Virus record (IMG/VR): IMGVR_UViG_3300028025_001729
Span: 1-28,044 of that record
Length of the DNA stretch: 28,044 nt
Strand: one strand, 5' to 3'
Origin: a virus
The position numbers were made by a program, and so were the translations under genes. Positions 1,826 through 28,044 of this stretch are shown in pieces. Within the stretch, counting starts at the first letter, position 1. Each line of letters starts with the position of its first letter. The notes under the pieces were generated by a model. It made no database searches, was not told the DNA's origin, and saw nothing but the letters and a program-made list of their open reading frames with translations.

Positions 1826-3795
1826 TGCCGTATTACATAACCGACAAATCCGCAGACTGCCCGGCTTGGGCCGTAGTAAAAGAAGACGGCGAACTTCTAG
1901 CTTGCCACGACACTAAAGAATCAGCGATTGAACAAGCTATCGCAGTATCCATAGCGGAAGAAACCGAATTCGTTGGAGAACGCGCAGCCGTCGGAGAGCT
2001 AAAGATTGGCGATTGGGTAAGTTGGAACATTCGAAACCCGAAGGTACTTGCGCAGATCGTACTCATAGAAGGCGAACTAGCCGGGCTAGAAGTTTACGAA
2101 TTAGAAGACGAAGTTTACCATTCCACTAGCCGTCTAATGATTATGAACGTCTTCAAGCTTCAAAGAATCCAAATGCCGGAAAGAATCTCCGCGGAAGTAG
2201 AAGACGCAGAAGAAGAAGAATTAGAAGACGAAGGCGAAGAAAATCTCCCTGACAACTACCGCCCGGCACTAGCTCCAGACGTTCCAGAAGGTCGAGCTTG
2301 TGGAAATTGCTTCTTCTTCAATGAAGCCCGACTAAACGACGACGGAGATAAAGCTTGGTGCGAGCGTTGGGACGCATTTGTAGACGGCGGAAACTACTGT
2401 AATGCTTGGCAGCCTAACGAAGAAGATAGGGCAGCGCCCGACGCTTTAGAAGTTGGAGATTCGGTTTCTTGGAATTCTTCAGGTGGAAGAGCGCGTGGAG
2501 TAATTGAAAGAATCGAACGGGACGGAACTATAAATGTTCCAAACAGCGACTTTACAATTTCTGGAACCGAAGATGACCCTGCGGCTTTGATTCGTGTTTA
2601 CCGCCCGGGCCAAGAAGGCTTAGAGCCTACCGAAACTTTAGTCGCGCATAAATTTAGCACTCTAACAAAGATTGAAGAGCTAGACGAAAATCGGGCGGTA
2701 AACCTAACCGCTCCGGCTTATATGAGAGCAGCGGCCCGCCGTGGACTTGAATACTACGCACAAGGTTTAGCCGGGGACGGGCTTGTAGATCGAACCGTAA
2801 GAGAAGCGCGCGCTATGGCAGAAGGAAACGTTACCGCCGACAAATGGGTACGAATTGCCGCTTGGATTGCTAGACACTTAGGCGACCTAGACTCTCCAGA
2901 CGCAAACCCTTCTTCCGAAAACTATCCTTCCGCCGGAGTCGTTGCTCACCTTCTTTGGGGAAGTGGCCCTAGCAAAGCGTCAGCTAACCGAGCTATGAAA
3001 TATGCGCAAGGCGTCGTTGCTAGACTAGAGGAAGAAAATCGCGCAACCATAAGTCAGGAAAGCGAACAAATGGCAAAGATTGAAAAGCGGACTAACGAAG
3101 TTAAGTTCGAACTAAGAGCAGTCGAAGGTGGCGACGGTATGACTTTTACCGGATACGCCGCAGTCTTCAACTCCCCTAGCGAACCCCTACCTTTTATCGA
3201 AAGAATCGCTCCGGGAGCATTCAAGCGTTCACTAAAGGCGCGCAACGATATCAAGCTTCTATACAACCACGACACCGGGGCCGTTCTAGGCTCTACCCGG
3301 GCTGGAACCCTAAAGCTGGAAGAAGATAACTACGGCTTGCGAGTTACCGCCGTGCTACCTGAAACGACTCTCGGAAAAGACGTTCGCACACTTGTTCAAC
3401 GTGGCGACGTATCAGCTATGAGTTTTGGATTCTCAGTTCCAGCTAACGGCGATTCTTGGAACACCGACGGAACCGAAAGAACTCTCCGCTCAGTTAGGAT
3501 TCACGAAGTTTCGATCGTGGCATTCCCGGCTTACCAACAGACCGCTGGAACCGCTACCGTTCGCTCATTTGACGGAGTAGCAAAGCGCACAGAAGTAGAC
3601 GCAGACCAACTAGCGGACGCTTTCCTAGCTATTGAAGACGGCAAAGACCTATCTCTAGAGCAGTCCGAACTTCTAACTAAGGTAATCCAGCGACTAACCC
3701 CGCAGGAAGAAGCCGAAGCTGAAGACAATTCGGCAGAGCTTACAGCGCTAGAACTAAAGAAGAAGAAATTCGAACTCCTAATGAAGAGGTTGTAA
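1825..3795 (+). CDS. multidomain prohead protease (HK97 family, U35-type)
   Basis: 656 aa, about three times the usual protease length; GTG start overlapping the preceding TAG. The C-terminal part (about 416-590) is the protease: FTGYAAVF, ERIAPGAF, LLYNHD (catalytic His), GDVSAMSFGF (catalytic Ser) and HEVSIVAFPAY. The N-terminal part has several modules: a short domain with C12 and C27 (1-50); a Tudor-like segment at 56-115 (GDWVSWN); an acidic Glu-rich linker (122-140); a four-Cys motif C159-x2-C162, C179, C192 followed by W; a second Tudor-like segment at 205-285 (GDSVSWNSSGGRARG); and a helical domain at 295-402. An internal ATG at 3070, 7 bases after AGGAAAG, could give a 241-residue protease alone. 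The N-terminal part may act as a scaffold or delta domain; this is inference. Confidence 0.9.
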   Translation: MPYYITDKSADCPAWAVVKEDGELLACHDTKESAIEQAIAVSIAEETEFVGERAAVGELKIGDWVSWNIRNPKVLAQIVLIEGELAGLEVYELEDEVYHSTSRLMIMNVFKLQRIQMPERISAEVEDAEEEELEDEGEENLPDNYRPALAPDVPEGRACGNCFFFNEARLNDDGDKAWCERWDAFVDGGNYCNAWQPNEEDRAAPDALEVGDSVSWNSSGGRARGVIERIERDGTINVPNSDFTISGTEDDPAALIRVYRPGQEGLEPTETLVAHKFSTLTKIEELDENRAVNLTAPAYMRAAARRGLEYYAQGLAGDGLVDRTVREARAMAEGNVTADKWVRIAAWIARHLGDLDSPDANPSSENYPSAGVVAHLLWGSGPSKASANRAMKYAQGVVARLEEENRATISQESEQMAKIEKRTNEVKFELRAVEGGDGMTFTGYAAVFNSPSEPLPFIERIAPGAFKRSLKARNDIKLLYNHDTGAVLGSTRAGTLKLEEDNYGLRVTAVLPETTLGKDVRTLVQRGDVSAMSFGFSVPANGDSWNTDGTERTLRSVRIHEVSIVAFPAYQQTAGTATVRSFDGVAKRTEVDADQLADAFLAIEDGKDLSLEQSELLTKVIQRLTPQEEAEAEDNSAELTALELKKKKFELLMKRL

Positions 3796-3796
3796 A

Positions 3797-3964
3797 ATGG
3801 CAAACCTAGATAAAATCAAAGAAGCAATTCTAAAGGCTTCAGGGTATCCAGATACGGGTATTGTTCGTGATAACGTGGACACTTGGGCGCAGGCCGTTTG
3901 GGAACTTGATAACGAAGTTAAGCCAAAAGAAATTCGCGTCATAGAAGCTAAAGAAACCCGCTAA
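3797..3964 (+). CDS. hypothetical protein, 55 aa
   Basis: It starts one base after the protease stop; the ribosome site is GAAGAGG within the end of the protease gene. The product is hydrophilic and mostly helical, with the segment TGIVRDNVDTWAQAVWELD. Small proteins of this kind occur between protease and capsid genes in related phages. No function can be assigned. It is the last gene before a strong terminator. Confidence 0.7.
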   Translation: MANLDKIKEAILKASGYPDTGIVRDNVDTWAQAVWELDNEVKPKEIRVIEAKETR

Positions 3965-3998
3965 GGGTTCGTCGGGTTTATCCCCTTTCTCCCGACCG

Positions 3999-4038
3999 CA
4001 ACGCCCGCCGTATTCCTTTCCGGCGGGCGTTGTCTTTT
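3999..4038 (+). terminator. rho-independent terminator after the protease operon
   Basis: A perfect 12-bp stem, CAACGCCCGCCG at 3999-4010 against CGGCGGGCGTTG at 4021-4032, has a 10-base loop and is followed by TCTTTT. It separates the portal/protease operon from the capsid gene. Confidence 0.92.
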
Positions 4039-4057
4039 ACCCGGATTAGTAGAATAG
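4036..4057 (+). promoter_or_regulatory. candidate promoter for the capsid gene
   Basis: TAGAATAG at 4050-4057 resembles a -10 box and lies 17 bases after the terminator stem, with TTTAC at 4036-4040. The same arrangement recurs at 9597-9616. No good -35 hexamer is seen at 16-18 bases. It would give an untranslated leader of about 85 bases before the capsid ATG at 4147, which has a strong ribosome site (AAGGAG at 4133-4138). Confidence 0.5.
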
Positions 4058-4146
4058 AAGTTATGGGTTGAGTCAGCTCCCCGAACTACCGTCTGAGTTA
4101 GCACGGCGGAAATCCAAATAAAAAAATCAAACAAGGAGTAACAACT

Positions 4147-5322
4147 ATGTCAGACTTTCTGAAGTCGCAGGTTGAAGCCCGCAACAACCTAATCGAGCAG
4201 GCCCGAACAGTAATCGAGTCAGCCGAAGCGGAAAAGCGCGGACTAACCGTAGACGACCAAGCAACAATCGAGCGTATTGAGAACGAAATTTCTCAGCGCG
4301 ACGCAGCTATCGACACCGCAAAGAAAATGGAAGAACGTGAAGCCCGCGCAGTAGACGCAGCTCGCAACTCTTTCATTCCTTCTAACGAAGTTCGTGGCGA
4401 CGCAGATATCCTACGCGCAATCGCAAACGGAGAAATGCGTTCACACACATTCGCACCAGAGAAGAGAGCACTTGTTCCTTCCGACAACCTAGTTCCAAAA
4501 TCTTTCTACGACGAAGTTTTCAGCGTGGCGAGATTGGCCGGGCCTATGCTTACTGTTTCTCAGGTAATCAATACCGCAGGTGGAGATACTCTAACAATCC
4601 CGACTCTAACCGGATATTCAACCGCAACAATCAAGAGTGCTGGTTCAGCTATCTCAGACAGCGAACCAACATTCTCAAACGTTCAGCTATCCGCGTTTAA
4701 GTATTCCTTCCTAGTCCCCGTGGCAAACGAACTTCTAGTTGACTCTTCACTAGATATTTCTGCGCTAATCGCGGAGCAGGCTGGAAACGCAATTGGTTTC
4801 GGAATCAACACCGGACTAACAACTGGAACCGGAACTGTAGAGCCAACTGGTATCTTCACAACCGGAGCTTCAGCGGTTACAGGTGGCACCGGAGTTTCAG
4901 GCGCACCGACCTACGAAAACTTGGTCGATTTGCTGTACACTTTGGACGGTCAAGCCCGTTTGCTCCCCGGAGTCGGCTGGTTGATGAACAAGACTGGTCT
5001 TGCGGCAGTTCGCAAAATCAAGGACGGTTCTGGAGCGTTTATCTGGACAGCCGGAAATATCGCACAGGGTCAGCCAGATCAGCTACTCGGATATCCAGTA
5101 TATGAGAACCCGGCCGTTAGTTCAGTCGGTACAGCAGCATTTTCAATCGGCGTAGGACACTTGCCGTCGCTGAAGACAAGAATTGCCGGCGGTGTACAGG
5201 TGGCTCAGTCAGCCGATTACGCTTTCGCAAATGATGTAACAACCTTCCGTGTAACTGCTCGCGTGGATTCAAAATTGACTCACGCCAGCCACTTCGTCAA
5301 ATTTAAGGGCGGAGCAAGCTAA
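4147..5322 (+). CDS. major capsid protein (HK97 fold)
   Basis: 391 aa. The N-terminal ~75 residues are a charged coiled coil (delta/scaffold domain) rich in Glu, Ala and Arg. The rest has HK97 capsid family features: an LVPKSFYDEV segment, SVARLAGPML, TLTIPTLTG, FKYSFLVPVANELL (P-domain/A-domain region), the AGNAIGFGINTGLTTGTG stretch, and the C-terminal RVDSKLTHASHFVKFK. Processing by the upstream protease after the delta domain is expected, around residues 78-105. It is a single-gene transcription unit between two terminators, which fits high expression. Confidence 0.95.
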   Translation: MSDFLKSQVEARNNLIEQARTVIESAEAEKRGLTVDDQATIERIENEISQRDAAIDTAKKMEEREARAVDAARNSFIPSNEVRGDADILRAIANGEMRSHTFAPEKRALVPSDNLVPKSFYDEVFSVARLAGPMLTVSQVINTAGGDTLTIPTLTGYSTATIKSAGSAISDSEPTFSNVQLSAFKYSFLVPVANELLVDSSLDISALIAEQAGNAIGFGINTGLTTGTGTVEPTGIFTTGASAVTGGTGVSGAPTYENLVDLLYTLDGQARLLPGVGWLMNKTGLAAVRKIKDGSGAFIWTAGNIAQGQPDQLLGYPVYENPAVSSVGTAAFSIGVGHLPSLKTRIAGGVQVAQSADYAFANDVTTFRVTARVDSKLTHASHFVKFKGGAS

Positions 5323-5416: not shown

Positions 5417-6628
5417 ATGAAACCTACCAAATCTAAAAATCCCGCACGTGAACAACTTCGCGGAAGTGTTAGCGTCTACTCGAATTCGCCCGATCAGCCC
5501 ACGGGCTACGGACAGCAAGCCCGCTATCTTGTAGACCGACTAAAGCGCGACGGCTTAGACGTGGCAGCTTTATCAAATTACGGACTAGAAGGAATCCGCG
5601 GCGAACTTGAAACGCCTTACGGAAAGATTCCACACTTCGCCCGGGGCTTCGATATGTATTCAAACGATTCAGCGCCCGTAGATCATAAAACTTTTTCAGC
5701 TTCAAAGCCAAACCAACCAAACGCTATGATTACCCTTTACGACGTTTGGGTATTGACCAACCCGGGCTTTGAAGACTTCGACGTTTTAGCGTGGACACCG
5801 CTCGACCACGTAACCCTACCCCCAAGAGTTGAAACATTCCTAAAAAAGAAAAACGTTACCCCGGTTGCTATGGCTCCGCACGGAGTTAGACAATTAGAAG
5901 CTAAGGGGATTGACTGCCGATACGCACCGCACGGAATAAATACTAAAGTTCTAAAGCCAACCTTTGAAATTGACGGGCAACCAATCGAAGAGCATATGGG
6001 AACTAAAGATAGATTCGTCGTTGGAATTTGCGCGGCAAACAAAAGCTCAGGTCTAATTCACCGAAAAGCTTTTTCAGAAAATCTACTGGCCTTCTCGATC
6101 TTCAACAAGAAACACCCAGACGCTATGCTCTACATTCACACCGATCCGGCAGGAAAGGGAATTGGCTGGAATCTTCTTAGTCTTCTTCAGTCATTAGGCG
6201 TCAAGCATAATGACGTTGCTTTCCCAAATCCGCTTTCCTACCGCTACGGAATTTCCCAAGAACACCTAGCCGCTTACTATACGGGAATGGACGTTCTTCT
6301 AGCTACGTCTTACGGGGAAGGATTCGGAATTCCAACTATTGAAAGTTTGGCAGCCGGGACAAGGGTTATAGGTTCTAGCTGGGCCGCAACTCCAGACCTA
6401 GTTTCTGAAGATTCTTGGCTAGTGGACGGTCAGCCTTATTGGGACTCCGGGCAGGACGCTTGGTGGCAAATCCCGAACGTGCCTTCGATCGTCGCCGCGC
6501 TGGAAGAAGCCTACAAGCTAGGAAAGGGCCGTTCGCAAGTTGCTATCGACTTTGCTTCGGACTTTGACGTAGACAAGGTTTGGACGAAATATTGGCAACC
6601 TATCCTTCGGGAAAAATTCTCAAAATGA
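5417..6628 (+). CDS. GT4-like glycosyltransferase (GT-B fold)
   Basis: 403 aa, normal for the family. These enzymes transfer a sugar from a nucleotide-sugar donor with retention of configuration. The C-terminal half shows the donor-binding pattern: RFVVGICAANKS (start of the second Rossmann domain, about 199-210), then GEGFGIPTIESLAAG with the EX7E pair E301 and E309, and TRVIGSSWAATPDL. The N-terminal half has the open glycine loop TGYGQQARYL (29-38). It is the first of three linked sugar genes directly after the capsid gene, which suggests that a virion protein or a virion-bound glycan is the acceptor; that link is inference. Confidence 0.88.
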   Translation: MKPTKSKNPAREQLRGSVSVYSNSPDQPTGYGQQARYLVDRLKRDGLDVAALSNYGLEGIRGELETPYGKIPHFARGFDMYSNDSAPVDHKTFSASKPNQPNAMITLYDVWVLTNPGFEDFDVLAWTPLDHVTLPPRVETFLKKKNVTPVAMAPHGVRQLEAKGIDCRYAPHGINTKVLKPTFEIDGQPIEEHMGTKDRFVVGICAANKSSGLIHRKAFSENLLAFSIFNKKHPDAMLYIHTDPAGKGIGWNLLSLLQSLGVKHNDVAFPNPLSYRYGISQEHLAAYYTGMDVLLATSYGEGFGIPTIESLAAGTRVIGSSWAATPDLVSEDSWLVDGQPYWDSGQDAWWQIPNVPSIVAALEEAYKLGKGRSQVAIDFASDFDVDKVWTKYWQPILREKFSK

Positions 6629-7269
6629 TTCCCGTTCTAGGGTTCGCCGTTTATAGTCAGTTCGACAAGGCGGATAGATTACTAGCTTCGATAGATTACC
6701 CGATTGAACACTTGGTAATCGTAGACAACTCCGGAGCGAAGAACTGGGAACCTAAGCAACCGGAACAAGTAAAGAATCTATGGCTTCTAAGAGTTCCCTT
6801 CGGACTTGGGCTTGTAGGTGCGTGGAATCTAGTGATCAAGTCCACGCCTTACGCTCCCTTCTGGGTTCTAGTAAATGATGACGCTTGGTTTGAGTCTGGA
6901 GCGCTGGAGATAATCGCAACAGAAACAGACCCGGAAGCTCTAACATTCGTAGATATCATTCCGGCTTGGTCTTGCGTTGTATTTGGGGAAGGCGCAATCG
7001 CAAAGGCTGGAGTCTATGACGAACGATTCTATCCGCTCTACTTTGACGACGACGACCTTCACCGCAGAATGGAAAAAGCTGGAGTAAAGATTCAAAGACT
7101 AGAAGCTAAAGTTCACCACGAAAACAGCTCTAGCCTAAAGAACAAGACAATAGAAAATAATCGAACCTACGACGCTAACAGAAAGCTAATGGACAAGAAG
7201 GTAATTGAGAATGACTTCTCTCCGGGCTACTGGGACTTAGAAACTAGAAGGGCTAACCGTTGGGACTAA
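6625..7269 (+). CDS. GT2-like glycosyltransferase (GT-A fold)
   Basis: 214 aa from ATG 6625, which overlaps the previous stop as ATGA. An upstream in-frame TTG at 6580 is less likely because it lies deep in the preceding gene. It reads like a short GT2 enzyme: IVDNS near residue 32, GLVGAWN (62-68, the usual G-xx-xA-xN segment), WVLVNDDAWF with the DXD-like NDD (84-86), and FDDDDLHRRM (140-149) at the catalytic-base position. It probably adds a second sugar after the GT4 enzyme. No membrane segment is seen, so it should act in the cytoplasm. Confidence 0.85.
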   Translation: MIPVLGFAVYSQFDKADRLLASIDYPIEHLVIVDNSGAKNWEPKQPEQVKNLWLLRVPFGLGLVGAWNLVIKSTPYAPFWVLVNDDAWFESGALEIIATETDPEALTFVDIIPAWSCVVFGEGAIAKAGVYDERFYPLYFDDDDLHRRMEKAGVKIQRLEAKVHHENSSSLKNKTIENNRTYDANRKLMDKKVIENDFSPGYWDLETRRANRWD

Positions 7270-7679
7270 TCGTTTACACCGGGGGAACCTTTGACCTTTT
7301 TCATTCGGGCCACGCTAACTTTCTGGAACGTTGCTCGGAGCTGGGTTCGGTTACCGTTTCCCTAAACACCGACGAATTCATAACCGCCTACAAAAAAAAG
7401 CCGCCAGTTATGAGCTACGCAGAAAGAGCTAGGGTTCTTCTTAGTTGTCGGTATGTTTCTAGGGTTATCCCAAACTACGGCGGCGCAGACTCTACTTCCG
7501 CAATCGAAACAATCGCTCCCGATCTAATCGTTATTGGCTCGGACTGGGCGCGACGGGACTATTACTCTCAAATGGGATTCACGCAAGATTGGCTAGACGA
7601 AAGGGGAATTGGCTTGGTCTACATTCCCTACACGGACGGAATCAGCTCGACGGCTATAAAAGCCCGGCTGGTAAGATAG
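7260..7679 (+). CDS. cytidylyltransferase-like nucleotidyltransferase
   Basis: 139 aa, TTG start within the end of the preceding gene. It has the two signatures of the HIGH-type nucleotidyltransferase superfamily: TGGTFDLFHSGH with H15-x2-H18, and ISSTAIKAR near the C-terminus (ISSTxIxxR). Length and motifs fit glycerol-3-phosphate cytidylyltransferase (TagD-like) or the nucleotidyltransferase domain of heptose enzymes. It would activate a phosphorylated polyol or sugar as a CDP or ADP derivative, presumably the donor for one of the two glycosyltransferases upstream. The exact substrate cannot be read from the sequence. Confidence 0.87.
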   Translation: MGLIVYTGGTFDLFHSGHANFLERCSELGSVTVSLNTDEFITAYKKKPPVMSYAERARVLLSCRYVSRVIPNYGGADSTSAIETIAPDLIVIGSDWARRDYYSQMGFTQDWLDERGIGLVYIPYTDGISSTAIKARLVR

Positions 7680-16278: not shown

Positions 16279-16463
16279 TGTTCAATCTAAAGCCACCCGT
16301 AAGAAAATGGATATACGGAATTGTCGCCGCAACCGTTCCGCTACTGATTAGCTTGGGAACAATTACCAACGAACTAGGGGCGCAAATTCTAAACGTCGCC
16401 GCAGCTCTACTAGCAATCGGTAGCTCTGCCCTAGCTATCTCTTACGTCCCCGACGCTGAATAA
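16278..16463 (+). CDS. holin-like protein, two membrane segments
   Basis: 61 aa, start ATG coupled to the previous stop (TAATG). Residues 12-30 and 35-57 are hydrophobic with a short NELG turn, the N-terminus is basic (PPVRK) and the C-terminus is acidic, which matches r1t-type holins of actinophages. It is the last gene of the rightward lysis cassette. Its 3' end overlaps the 3' end of the opposite-strand whiB-like gene by 22 bases. Confidence 0.75.
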   Translation: MFNLKPPVRKWIYGIVAATVPLLISLGTITNELGAQILNVAAALLAIGSSALAISYVPDAE

Positions 16464-16723
16464 CGCTCAGCTTCGGTAGTGCCTCCCCAAATGCCCGATA
16501 CCCGGGTTGATAGGGCATAATCTCGGCATTGTAGTCTAATTGGGCAGCGTTGGCAGATACCTTTGGCTATTTCTTCTACCAATTTCTGCGAACTTCGGCT
16601 CACCTCTTGGGCAAAAAACACGTCTGGAAGCTCTTCGCAATCAACGGAACCGACCTCCCGGATAGCTTCGTGGAGTTCTAGGTATTTCCGCTCTATGCCT
16701 AATAATTGTCGTAGGGTAGTCAT
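16442..16723 (-). CDS. WhiB-family transcriptional regulator
   Basis: 93 aa, the only complete gene on the minus strand. It has the four cysteines that bind a 4Fe-4S cluster, C29, C57, C60 and C66 (C-x27-C-x2-C-x5-C), and the GIWGG turn (77-81) followed by TEAER. WhiB proteins act with the primary sigma factor of actinobacteria and are confined to actinobacteria and their phages, so this gene is the best indicator of host. A 49-base divergent gap separates it from the exonuclease gene. It ends in a convergent overlap with the holin gene, so reading through either gene produces antisense RNA to the other. Confidence 0.94.
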   Translation of the reverse strand: MTTLRQLLGIERKYLELHEAIREVGSVDCEELPDVFFAQEVSRSSQKLVEEIAKGICQRCPIRLQCRDYALSTRVSGIWGGTTEAERYSASGT

Positions 16724-25932: not shown

Positions 25933-26499
25933 ATGAAGATAGGAAGTTTATTCAGCGGATACGGCGGGTTAGACCTAGCCGTTAGCAAAATCACGGGCGC
26001 AGAAGTCGCGTGGCATTGTGAATGGGAAGAGGCTCCGAGCAAGGTTCTAGAAGCTCACTTCCCGGGCGTTCCAAACTATCGGGACGTTAGCAAGGTCGAT
26101 TGGGAAGCCGTCGAACCCGTGGATATTCTTACGGGCGGTTTTCCTTGTCAGGACTTATCCCTAGCGGGTAAGCGCGCAGGATTACAAGAAGGAACACGCT
26201 CCGGATTATGGTCGGAGTTTTACAAAGCAATTTCAATCATCAAACCAAAATTAGTAGTAATTGAAAACGTAAGGGGTTTACTAAGTGCCAAAGCAGATAG
26301 CGGAATGGAATACGGACCTGAAATTATGGACAAACTCAAAGGGCAACCAGCTCTTAGAGCATTGGGAGCCGTTCTTGGCGACTTGGCCGAAATCGGGTAT
26401 GACGCAAGGTGGACGGGCGTTCGAGCTTCCGACGCTGGAGCAGCTCACCAACGATTTAGAGTCTTTGTCGTCGCCTATCCTTCGAACTCCAGCAGCTAG
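25933..26499 (+). CDS. cytosine-5 DNA methyltransferase, catalytic (alpha) subunit
   Basis: 188 aa, about half the usual length. It carries motif I (SLFSGYGGLDLA, 5-16), motif IV with catalytic Cys72 (GFPCQDLS, 69-76), motif VI ENV (111-113) and motif VIII (HQRFRVF, 172-178), then stops after VVAYPSNSSS. It lacks the target-recognition domain and motifs IX-X, which are in 26285..27178 in another frame. ATG 25933 follows AAAGGGGAG. Needs the second polypeptide to be active. Probably methylates phage DNA against host restriction. Confidence 0.9.
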   Translation: MKIGSLFSGYGGLDLAVSKITGAEVAWHCEWEEAPSKVLEAHFPGVPNYRDVSKVDWEAVEPVDILTGGFPCQDLSLAGKRAGLQEGTRSGLWSEFYKAISIIKPKLVVIENVRGLLSAKADSGMEYGPEIMDKLKGQPALRALGAVLGDLAEIGYDARWTGVRASDAGAAHQRFRVFVVAYPSNSSS

Positions 26500-27178
26500 C
26501 GAAGCAGAACGCGGACATCAAACCGAATCCGTTGCTAGAGCTAGAGGCGGACAAGTAACCCTTAGCGGACAAATGAAGGAACTTTTTCCAACGCCGATAG
26601 TTAGCGATTGGAAGAATGGAATCAGTTCACCGGGGTATGGAATGAATTTACCTATGACCGCAAAGAGCCTTCTTCCGACAACAAGGGTAAGTATGGCTAA
26701 TGGCCCGACTCAAAAAGAAATAAAAGAAGGAAACCCAAAGAGCAGAATCGAAGTTGAAGTAATGCTCTTTCCTACTCCTAACACTATGGAACACAGAGAA
26801 ATAAAGACACCCGAACAAATTCAAGCTATGAAAGACAAGTCGCCGGGCGGATACCGTAATCTTCGAGAGTCAGTAGTAAACGAAATGCCCGAAACAAATT
26901 GGGGAAAGTTTGAACCAGCTATCCGACGCTGGGAACAGGTCTTAGGTAGACCATCTCCAGCACCGACCAAGCCCGACGGTAAGGACGGAGCGCACCGCCT
27001 AAGTTCTATGTTTACCGAATGGCTAATGGGATTACCTGAAGGCTGGATAACTGGGCTAGGACTAAAGCGTAACGACGAACTAAAGTTAGCGGGGAATGGA
27101 GTAGTTCCACAACAGGCGGAACTTGCTTTACGGCTACTATTGGAAGACGACAACTTGCTAGAGAAAATAAAGAAATGA
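26285..27178 (+). CDS. cytosine-5 DNA methyltransferase, target-recognition (beta) subunit
   Basis: 297 aa. GTG 26285 lies 8 bases after AAGGGG and 215 bases before the end of the catalytic gene, which it overlaps in another frame. Residues 31-50 (LATWPKSGMTQGGRAFELPT) and LRTPAAS (66-72) are the recurrent text of target-recognition regions in phage methyltransferases; LFPTP and FPTPIVSDWK follow. The C-terminus has WGKFEPAIRRWEQVLGRP (206-223), MFTEWLMGLPEGW (242-254) and motif X-like AGNGVVPQQ (269-277). So it supplies target recognition plus motifs IX-X. No catalytic Cys. A true protein, not a shadow: these motifs are conserved. Confidence 0.82.
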   Translation: MPKQIAEWNTDLKLWTNSKGNQLLEHWEPFLATWPKSGMTQGGRAFELPTLEQLTNDLESLSSPILRTPAASEAERGHQTESVARARGGQVTLSGQMKELFPTPIVSDWKNGISSPGYGMNLPMTAKSLLPTTRVSMANGPTQKEIKEGNPKSRIEVEVMLFPTPNTMEHREIKTPEQIQAMKDKSPGGYRNLRESVVNEMPETNWGKFEPAIRRWEQVLGRPSPAPTKPDGKDGAHRLSSMFTEWLMGLPEGWITGLGLKRNDELKLAGNGVVPQQAELALRLLLEDDNLLEKIKK

Positions 27179-27704: not shown

Positions 27705-27904
27705 TGCCTAGTCTGGGAAACGAAGCTACGGTAGCTGGAACCGAAGTTTGGCTAACGCCGCCGTACATTCTCGAAGCTCTTGGAGCGTTTGACTTAGACC
27801 CTTGCGCTTCCCTAGATCGTCCCGGGTTACTGCCACCGGGGGTCATAGGGGAGCGTTATCTATCTAAGGGCTTGTTGCTTCGGCGTCTGTTACAGCTTCT
27901 ATGA
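27704..27904 (+). pseudogene. phage adenine-N6 methyltransferase (Dam-like), N-terminus only
   Basis: The first ~42 residues read VWLTPPYILEALGAFDLDPC and then ASLDRP, the standard start of phage Dam-like N6-adenine methyltransferases (target of the fold being DPPY/NPPY downstream). After DRP at about 27823 the sequence becomes unrelated (GLLPPGVIG...) and stops at 27902-27904, so the catalytic motif is missing. The break coincides with CCCGGG at 27821-27826, and the following bases encode a gene on the other strand. The ATG shares one base with the previous stop. Either a genuine deletion or inversion, or an assembly join. Confidence 0.75.
27815..27846. other. probable inverted join
   Basis: The plus-strand methyltransferase frame is lost at or near the palindrome CCCGGG (27821-27826). 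From here on the coding sense is on the minus strand. On the minus strand, an ATG at 27846 begins MTPGGSNPG before reaching the same palindrome, which might be the start of the gene following HNH (for example terminase small subunit). That would make the right-hand end a reverse-complement copy of sequence from the genome's left end. Confidence 0.5.
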
Positions 27905-28044
27905 GCTGGAAGTAGTTCTGCGGTTGCTCCGTGAGCTGAAGCTTGAACGTGATCGGCTTCGAATGGGTCATTTTCTTTTTTTCCTTCTCCGCATAAGTGG
28001 CAAAGAATCGCATTCTCTCGGACTGCCCTAGCGCGAGCTGCGTA
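27856..28044 (-). CDS. HNH endonuclease, C-terminal 62 residues (partial, runs off the edge)
   Basis: Reading the minus strand from the right edge gives CHLCGEG, then EADHVQASAHGA, LLPAHRSCNRRRSNK and stop. This is the standard HNH layout: C-x2-C, DH-type first His, N-terminal-like Leu-Pro-x-His and C-N-x3 end. HNH genes usually sit next to the terminase small subunit at the genome end and help packaging. It lies on the opposite strand from all other late genes, which is abnormal. Confidence 0.87.
   Translation of the reverse strand, partial: YAARARAVRENAILCHLCGEGKKENDPFEADHVQASAHGATAELLPAHRSCNRRRSNKPLDR

Follow-up and report, generated by a model that had tools for sequence, protein, structure and literature searches.

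Two genes of a tailed phage, here called alpha and beta, overlap in different reading frames and together carry the conserved motifs of a cytosine-5 DNA methyltransferase (C5-MTase). The overlap is conserved among relatives and both of its frames are under selection; beyond it, beta carries an array of cassettes that are shuffled between phages, followed by a module that has switched between the two frames. We put at roughly 75% the probability that the pair is an orphan two-chain C5 methylase, with separately translated chains and a modular specificity subunit residing on beta.

The window, that is, the whole stretch of 28,044 nucleotides that was analyzed, is an IMG/VR virus record. It encodes a WhiB-type transcription factor (PF02467) on the minus strand at 16442-16723, opposite to the surrounding genes, which points to an actinobacterial host. 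Positions 5417-7679, which separate the capsid genes from the head-tail genes, encode a glycosyltransferase (PF13692), a second, short ORF resembling a glycosyltransferase (no Pfam hit) and a cytidylyltransferase (PF01467). This location is unusual, and the three genes possibly serve in virion decoration. Similarity to all close relatives ends at about 27711. The remainder, 27712-28044, holds a truncated ORF beginning EVWLTPPYILEALGAFDLDPCAS (no Pfam hit), whose start we take to resemble that of an N6-adenine methylase, and a fragment of an HNH endonuclease on the opposite strand, running off the end; this segment reflects either phage mosaicism or an assembly artefact at the contig end.

The features of the two genes are listed in Table 1. 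Both ORFs, the length and frame of their overlap, the motifs and the AAGGGG sequence 8 nt before the GTG start of beta proved to be exactly as a sequence-only reading of this DNA had described them. The start of beta is offset by 352 nt from that of alpha, which places it in the +1 frame.

Table 1. Features of the alpha/beta locus in the window
Feature	Position	Strand	Remarks
Alpha gene, C5-MTase catalytic half	25933-26499	+	ATG start, 188 aa
ENVRG codons of alpha motif VI	26263-26277	+	ENV invariant in alpha alignment
AAGGGG, ribosome-binding site of beta	26271-26276	+	Within the V-R-G codons of alpha motif VI
Beta gene, S module + specificity cassettes + IX-X module	26285-27178	+	GTG start, 297 aa
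Dual-coded overlap of alpha and beta	26285-26499	+	215 nt; beta in +1 frame of alpha
S module of beta, MPKQIAEWN...TWPKSGMTQGGRAFELPT	26285-26452	+	Nearly always +1 to alpha in the survey
Cassette 1 (putative recognition element), ILRTPAASEAERGHQ...	26477-26581	+	Type 5, common to 15 other loci
Cassette 2 (putative recognition element), LFPTPIVSDWKNG...	26582-26668	+	Type 8, in 9 loci
Cassette 3 (putative recognition element), LLPTTRVSMANGPTQKEIKEGNPKSRIE...	26669-26764	+	Type 1, in 54 loci
Cassette 4 (putative recognition element), LFPTPNTMEHREIKTPEQ...	26765-26902	+	Type 3, in 43 loci
C module: WGKFEPAIRRWE, motif IX-like FTEWLMGLPEGW, motif X GNGVVPQQA	26903-27145	+	From alignments; in alpha frame in single-chain relatives

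Profile searches assigned alpha to the C5 cytosine DNA methyltransferases: it covers positions 1-162 of the 324 of PF00145 (Pfam, E 5e-36), TIGR00675 was also matched above its cut-off, and the closest solved relatives are M.HhaI and M.HaeIII. Motifs I (GSLFSGYGGLD), IV (GGFPCQ, with Cys72), VI (ENVRG) and VIII (HQRFRVF) are all present on alpha, and PC and ENV are invariant in alignments with its relatives. Motifs IX-X of the family are carried by beta; the homologous module shares a chain with motifs I-VIII in three related loci (L178, L049 and L043). Beta itself matches phrog_1008, labelled 'DNA methyltransferase' (E 1e-57), and alpha belongs by profile match to phrog_363, a family of 327 positions in which alpha and beta match complementary parts, 54-219 and 256-320, the second weakly (E 0.015). 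The labels of these two families miss the overlapping pair. NCBIfam and PADLOC hold no model for beta, and a search of the beta profile against solved structures gave chance-level matches only.

The sequence-only reading had favoured real dual coding over an indel. A search of IMG/VR with beta yielded 47 loci. Nearly all related loci with both parts retain the +1 overlap, at alpha identities from 95% down to about 45%, and its length by ORF in these loci is about 200-350 nt. The +1 frame of the overlap contains no stop codon in any of 37 loci (a count that leaves out L018, anchored at the wrong ENV), against about 86 expected from shuffling of synonymous codons within each alpha. In the window the frame is likewise stop-free, and synonymous shuffles of its alpha average 3.8 stops (p 0.0005). 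These shuffles preserve both the alpha protein and its codon usage. When scored against a profile of the beta N-terminus, the +1 text exceeded all 40 shuffles in 43 out of 43 loci tested.

The codon-level comparison of the two frames among relatives, which had also been suggested, revealed a signature of selection in both. Over 105 split loci compared pairwise, changes that are silent in alpha and alter beta occur at 0.70-0.76 times the rate upstream of the overlap, and changes that alter alpha and are silent in beta occur at 1.7-1.9 times that rate, both with narrow bootstrap intervals. A shift in the same direction is seen in the 42 loci whose IX-X module is read in the alpha frame; at 75-90% identity the alpha-silent, beta-changing ratio for such loci was 0.53 (interval 0.37-0.76), from 20 pairs only. 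At high identity, part of the similarity in the second frame is due to shared ancestry; the shuffling and substitution tests argue that selection maintains that frame. The earlier claim of dual coding is thus upheld by the conserved overlap, the absence of stops, the two-frame substitution pattern and a conserved ribosome site and start codons placed in motif VI. Its estimate of about 70 codons meaningful in both frames holds for the window; among relatives the figure varies between about 60 codons and the full length of alpha. The arrangement is real and old, and it recurs both among actinobacterial viruses, in hundreds of them, and among other bacteria.

Beta starts inside motif VI of alpha, and an in-frame TAA is the codon directly before its GTG. 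The codons of alpha at this point are biased: in 46 of the 105 split loci ENVRG has AGG for its Arg, a codon that makes up about 12% of Arg codons overall, and in 63 of them the Ser codon holding the GTG is AGT, compared with about 18% of Ser codons. In a second clade beta probably starts at an ATG or TTG slightly further upstream. Since the ribosome site and start of beta are conserved, the S module is selected and the alpha stop lacks conserved sequence, separate initiation is favoured over frameshifting, and we infer that beta is initiated separately within alpha.

The N-terminus of beta, the S module, has the consensus ...WN...WPxSGMTxxGxxFELP in relatives. In the window its GMT is the +1 reading of GYDA in alpha, and in Streptomyces phage Samy LENVA of alpha reads SWRTSQ in the +1 frame. 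The C module has the pattern WGKFEPAIRRWE ... FTEWMMGLPEGW ... GNGVVPQQA, corresponding to motifs IX-X. Among 260 loci classified by profile, S is almost always in +1; C shares the +1 ORF of S in 149 of them and is read in the alpha frame in another 79. A count based on regular expressions broadly agrees and leaves some loci unclassified, the profile-based counts being firmer. Mycobacterium phage Martik has an alpha of 408 aa with motifs I-X and S as a separate nested ORF of 61 codons. In L178 and L179, which belong to the window's own clade, motifs I-X occupy one frame of 479 residues, and S is still open in +1. C is also found in the alpha frame in Babsiella (gp55 annotated inside gp54), Actinomyces phage xhp1 and Gordonia phage Derg. 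Relatives with a single continuous frame had been named as evidence that would speak against dual coding; they do exist, but both L178 and Martik keep S in +1. A tree of 151 alphas shows 12 changes in the frame of the C module, several of them forced by well-supported branches, with S staying in +1. Because S is selected in +1 even where C is in the alpha frame, it seems, from these comparisons, to be maintained for its own sake. The presence of C on either chain, with S and alpha both kept, is the strongest comparative argument for one joint complex.

Other arrangements were seen in single loci or small groups. The C module is in the third (+2) frame of alpha in L023, L032, L190 and L084, apparently as a separate third ORF; these could be three-piece enzymes or sequencing indels. 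An acidimicrobial homologue (L087, 2013-3492) is a single chain with LPTP cassettes, its IX-X module is in the alpha frame and no S module is recognisable; this form possibly predates the second frame or follows its loss. Mycobacterium phage Tweety (L273) has two copies, at 2001-2786 and 3341-4453: gp69 is cut short after motif VIII with its +1 S ORF still open, and gp72 is full length. One of these copies may be decaying.

The middle of beta is an array of 'LPTP' cassettes of about 30-45 residues. We collected 491 cassettes from 209 ORFs carrying the C module, and 401 of them fell into 32 types of at least three members when typed at 55% identity or above (single-linkage clustering had merged most of them into one family). 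The types recur in differing positions and neighbourhoods, indicating that their order and number are shuffled between phages. The window has the array 5-8-1-3, compared with 10-0-4-8-1-3 in L002, although the alpha of L002 is 95% identical. Some cassettes are shared across phyla: identity to actinophage cassettes reaches about 65-70% for alphaproteobacterial ones, cassette 3 of the window has 62% identity with one of these (L097), and a cassette from Lacticaseibacillus phage R23.9 shares 79% identity over 34 residues with one from an actinophage. The alpha stop lies a median of 12 codons past the first LPTP-like motif, just inside the first cassette; in the window it is the TAG at 26497-26499, within cassette 1. 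As the cassettes lie downstream of the overlap, the array could be exchanged without damaging the catalytic chain. By their position, their variability and analogy, we infer that the cassettes are exchangeable target-recognition elements. The suggestion that target specificity is placed on a separate, swappable gene gains support from these arrays, the pair formed by the window and L002 being an example, with the recognition role itself putative.

In the AlphaFold2 model of beta, residues 1-50 (S) mostly have pLDDT of about 90 and form four short strands, the C module reaches about 92, and much of the cassette region is below 70 (pTM 0.40). Foldseek found nothing significant for this model; the best three of its four weak matches were C5-MTases. 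The single-chain protein of L178 gave a model with about 98 in the catalytic half, about 96 in the C module and low values in the cassettes (pTM 0.65). Its best matches were M.HhaI (E 6e-15) and M.HaeIII, with most of the score for the C5-MTase fold coming from the catalytic half (TM about 0.46 of target). The L178 model supports the view that the C module would form the end of the C5-MTase fold.

Related pairs occur well beyond actinophages. In Pseudomonadota genomes and Spirosoma (L091-L101) alpha comprises motifs I-VIII and X, as it does in Klebsiella phage 2 LV-2017, Lacticaseibacillus phage R23.9, Rhodobacter phage RcIroh, Acidovorax phage Alfacinha1 and Synechococcus phage Ssp-JY39. In these relatives a +1 ORF with PTP cassettes and a motif IX-like NPxxxxWLMGxP spans most or all of alpha, and the open +1 stretch is longer than in synonymous shuffles in 13 of 13 such loci (p from <0.001 to 0.034). 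The nested ORF of L092 matches phrog_1008 (E 3e-17) and so belongs to the same beta family. This family was found in 20 of 299 sampled genomes of Pseudomonadota, the phylum of L092, and in 8 of 296 sampled Actinomycetota genomes, the phylum of L056. Several records annotate one of the two frames only, Martik among them; for Alfacinha1 (L264, 1435-2568) and Ssp-JY39 (L265, 1387-2502) the annotated CDS is the beta frame and the catalytic alpha frame is unannotated.

C5 methylases made of two chains or encoded by overlapping genes are already known in kind. The genes of M.EcoHK31I overlap in different frames, the small chain being nested. Motifs I-VIII and X are on the alpha chain of this enzyme and IX is on beta; in M.AquI, alpha has I-VIII and beta has the distal variable region with IX-X (PMC3404938). 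The window resembles M.EcoHK31I (and M.EaeI) in having a large catalytic chain and a motif IX chain read from a different, overlapping frame, in this case over 215 nt selected in both frames. It differs in that alpha ends after VIII, leaving X and the recognition region to beta; the layout with recognition region and X on alpha and IX alone on beta is not found in the window. Its overlap is moreover partial, and the pair is a phage-borne orphan with a cassette array. Exactly the M.EcoHK31I split is seen in L091-L101 and L261-L265, including the Klebsiella and Lacticaseibacillus phages. Compared by motif layout rather than sequence, the window has a split identical to that of M.AquI, I-VIII and IX-X, but its overlap is long, dual-coded and selected in both frames, and its beta has the extra S module. 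The comparison with both enzymes made in the sequence-only reading was therefore apt: the motif split is that of M.AquI, and the alternate-frame overlap and the Pseudomonadota relatives are those of M.EcoHK31I. Multispecific C5-MTases of Bacillus phages have several target-recognising elements in one chain. The array of putative variable recognition elements is similar in layout; in the window, however, it is on a second chain, in another frame, and made of LPTP cassettes. What appears to be new is the breadth of the arrangement, the evidence for two-frame selection, the S module, the switching of IX-X between frames and the shuffled cassettes. No description of the overlap in phage methylases was found in the openly accessible literature that was searched, and priority is uncertain.

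Three other explanations of the locus were weighed. That the layout results from a sequencing or assembly frameshift, or from decay of a single-chain gene with the second-frame text as a ghost of alpha, would fit with the fact that alpha conservation forces some of this text (GYDA giving GMT) and that GC-rich genomes keep alternative frames open. However, the window and most relatives have about 48% GC, the same arrangement recurs in independent contigs and in finished phage genomes, and null models that preserve alpha yield stops and low profile scores. A technical frameshift was rejected on the conserved overlap, the zero stops, the substitution classes and the profile-score null, and a by-product of alpha conservation was rejected on the alpha-preserving shuffles; we regard this explanation as extremely improbable. 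A programmed +1 frameshift near the alpha stop, with the beta start unused or minor, would produce one fused C5-MTase with the ordinary order of I-VIII, recognition region and IX-X, and single-chain relatives such as L178 and Martik do exist. We consider it unlikely, as a search for a frameshift site found none and neither the surroundings of the alpha stop nor the alpha C-termini are conserved, whereas the ribosome site and start of beta are. Furthermore S, which lies upstream of any shift site, is selected in the beta frame even where IX-X is in the alpha frame and needs no shift.

It could also be that alpha and beta are partly independent, with S or the whole of beta acting as a regulator or partner, for instance by binding host enzymes, and catalysis proceeding without S. 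The 61-codon S ORF beside a full-length alpha in Martik-type phages and the lineages with no recognisable S, such as L087, can be read in this way. Against it stand the joining of S to the recognition and IX-X modules on one chain in most loci and the constant position of S with respect to motifs VI-VIII; we consider this reading unlikely as well.

In the two-chain methylase that we favour, alpha would supply AdoMet binding and catalysis through motifs I-VIII, and beta, translated from its own ribosome site within motif VI, would bring S, the interchangeable recognition cassettes and IX-X, completing an alpha/beta heterodimer. Movement of C between frames with S fixed in +1 is expected if the modules cooperate whichever chain bears them. 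The array might be exchanged or lengthened with no harm to the catalytic chain, altering which sites are protected. Protection of phage DNA is the usual role of such methylase genes, and here it would be directed against host restriction; none of the window ORFs examined was recognised as a restriction gene. More tentatively, the pair might represent a large cross-phylum class of phage C5-MTases with the recognition apparatus in a second frame, in which S was born by overprinting the universal motifs VI-VIII and became a required carrier of the cassettes, and IX-X was passed between frames.

Long same-strand, dual-coded regions with selection acting on the two frames are rarely encountered and difficult to prove, and the hundreds of loci available here allow tests at codon resolution. 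The arrangement accounts for the many methylases of phages and prophages that are annotated as half genes or in the wrong frame, and predicts a missing partner for each. In the modular recognition array, methylome sequencing could assign cassettes to target sites. The natural series of split, nested and single-chain forms bears on the origin of two-chain C5 methylases such as M.EcoHK31I.
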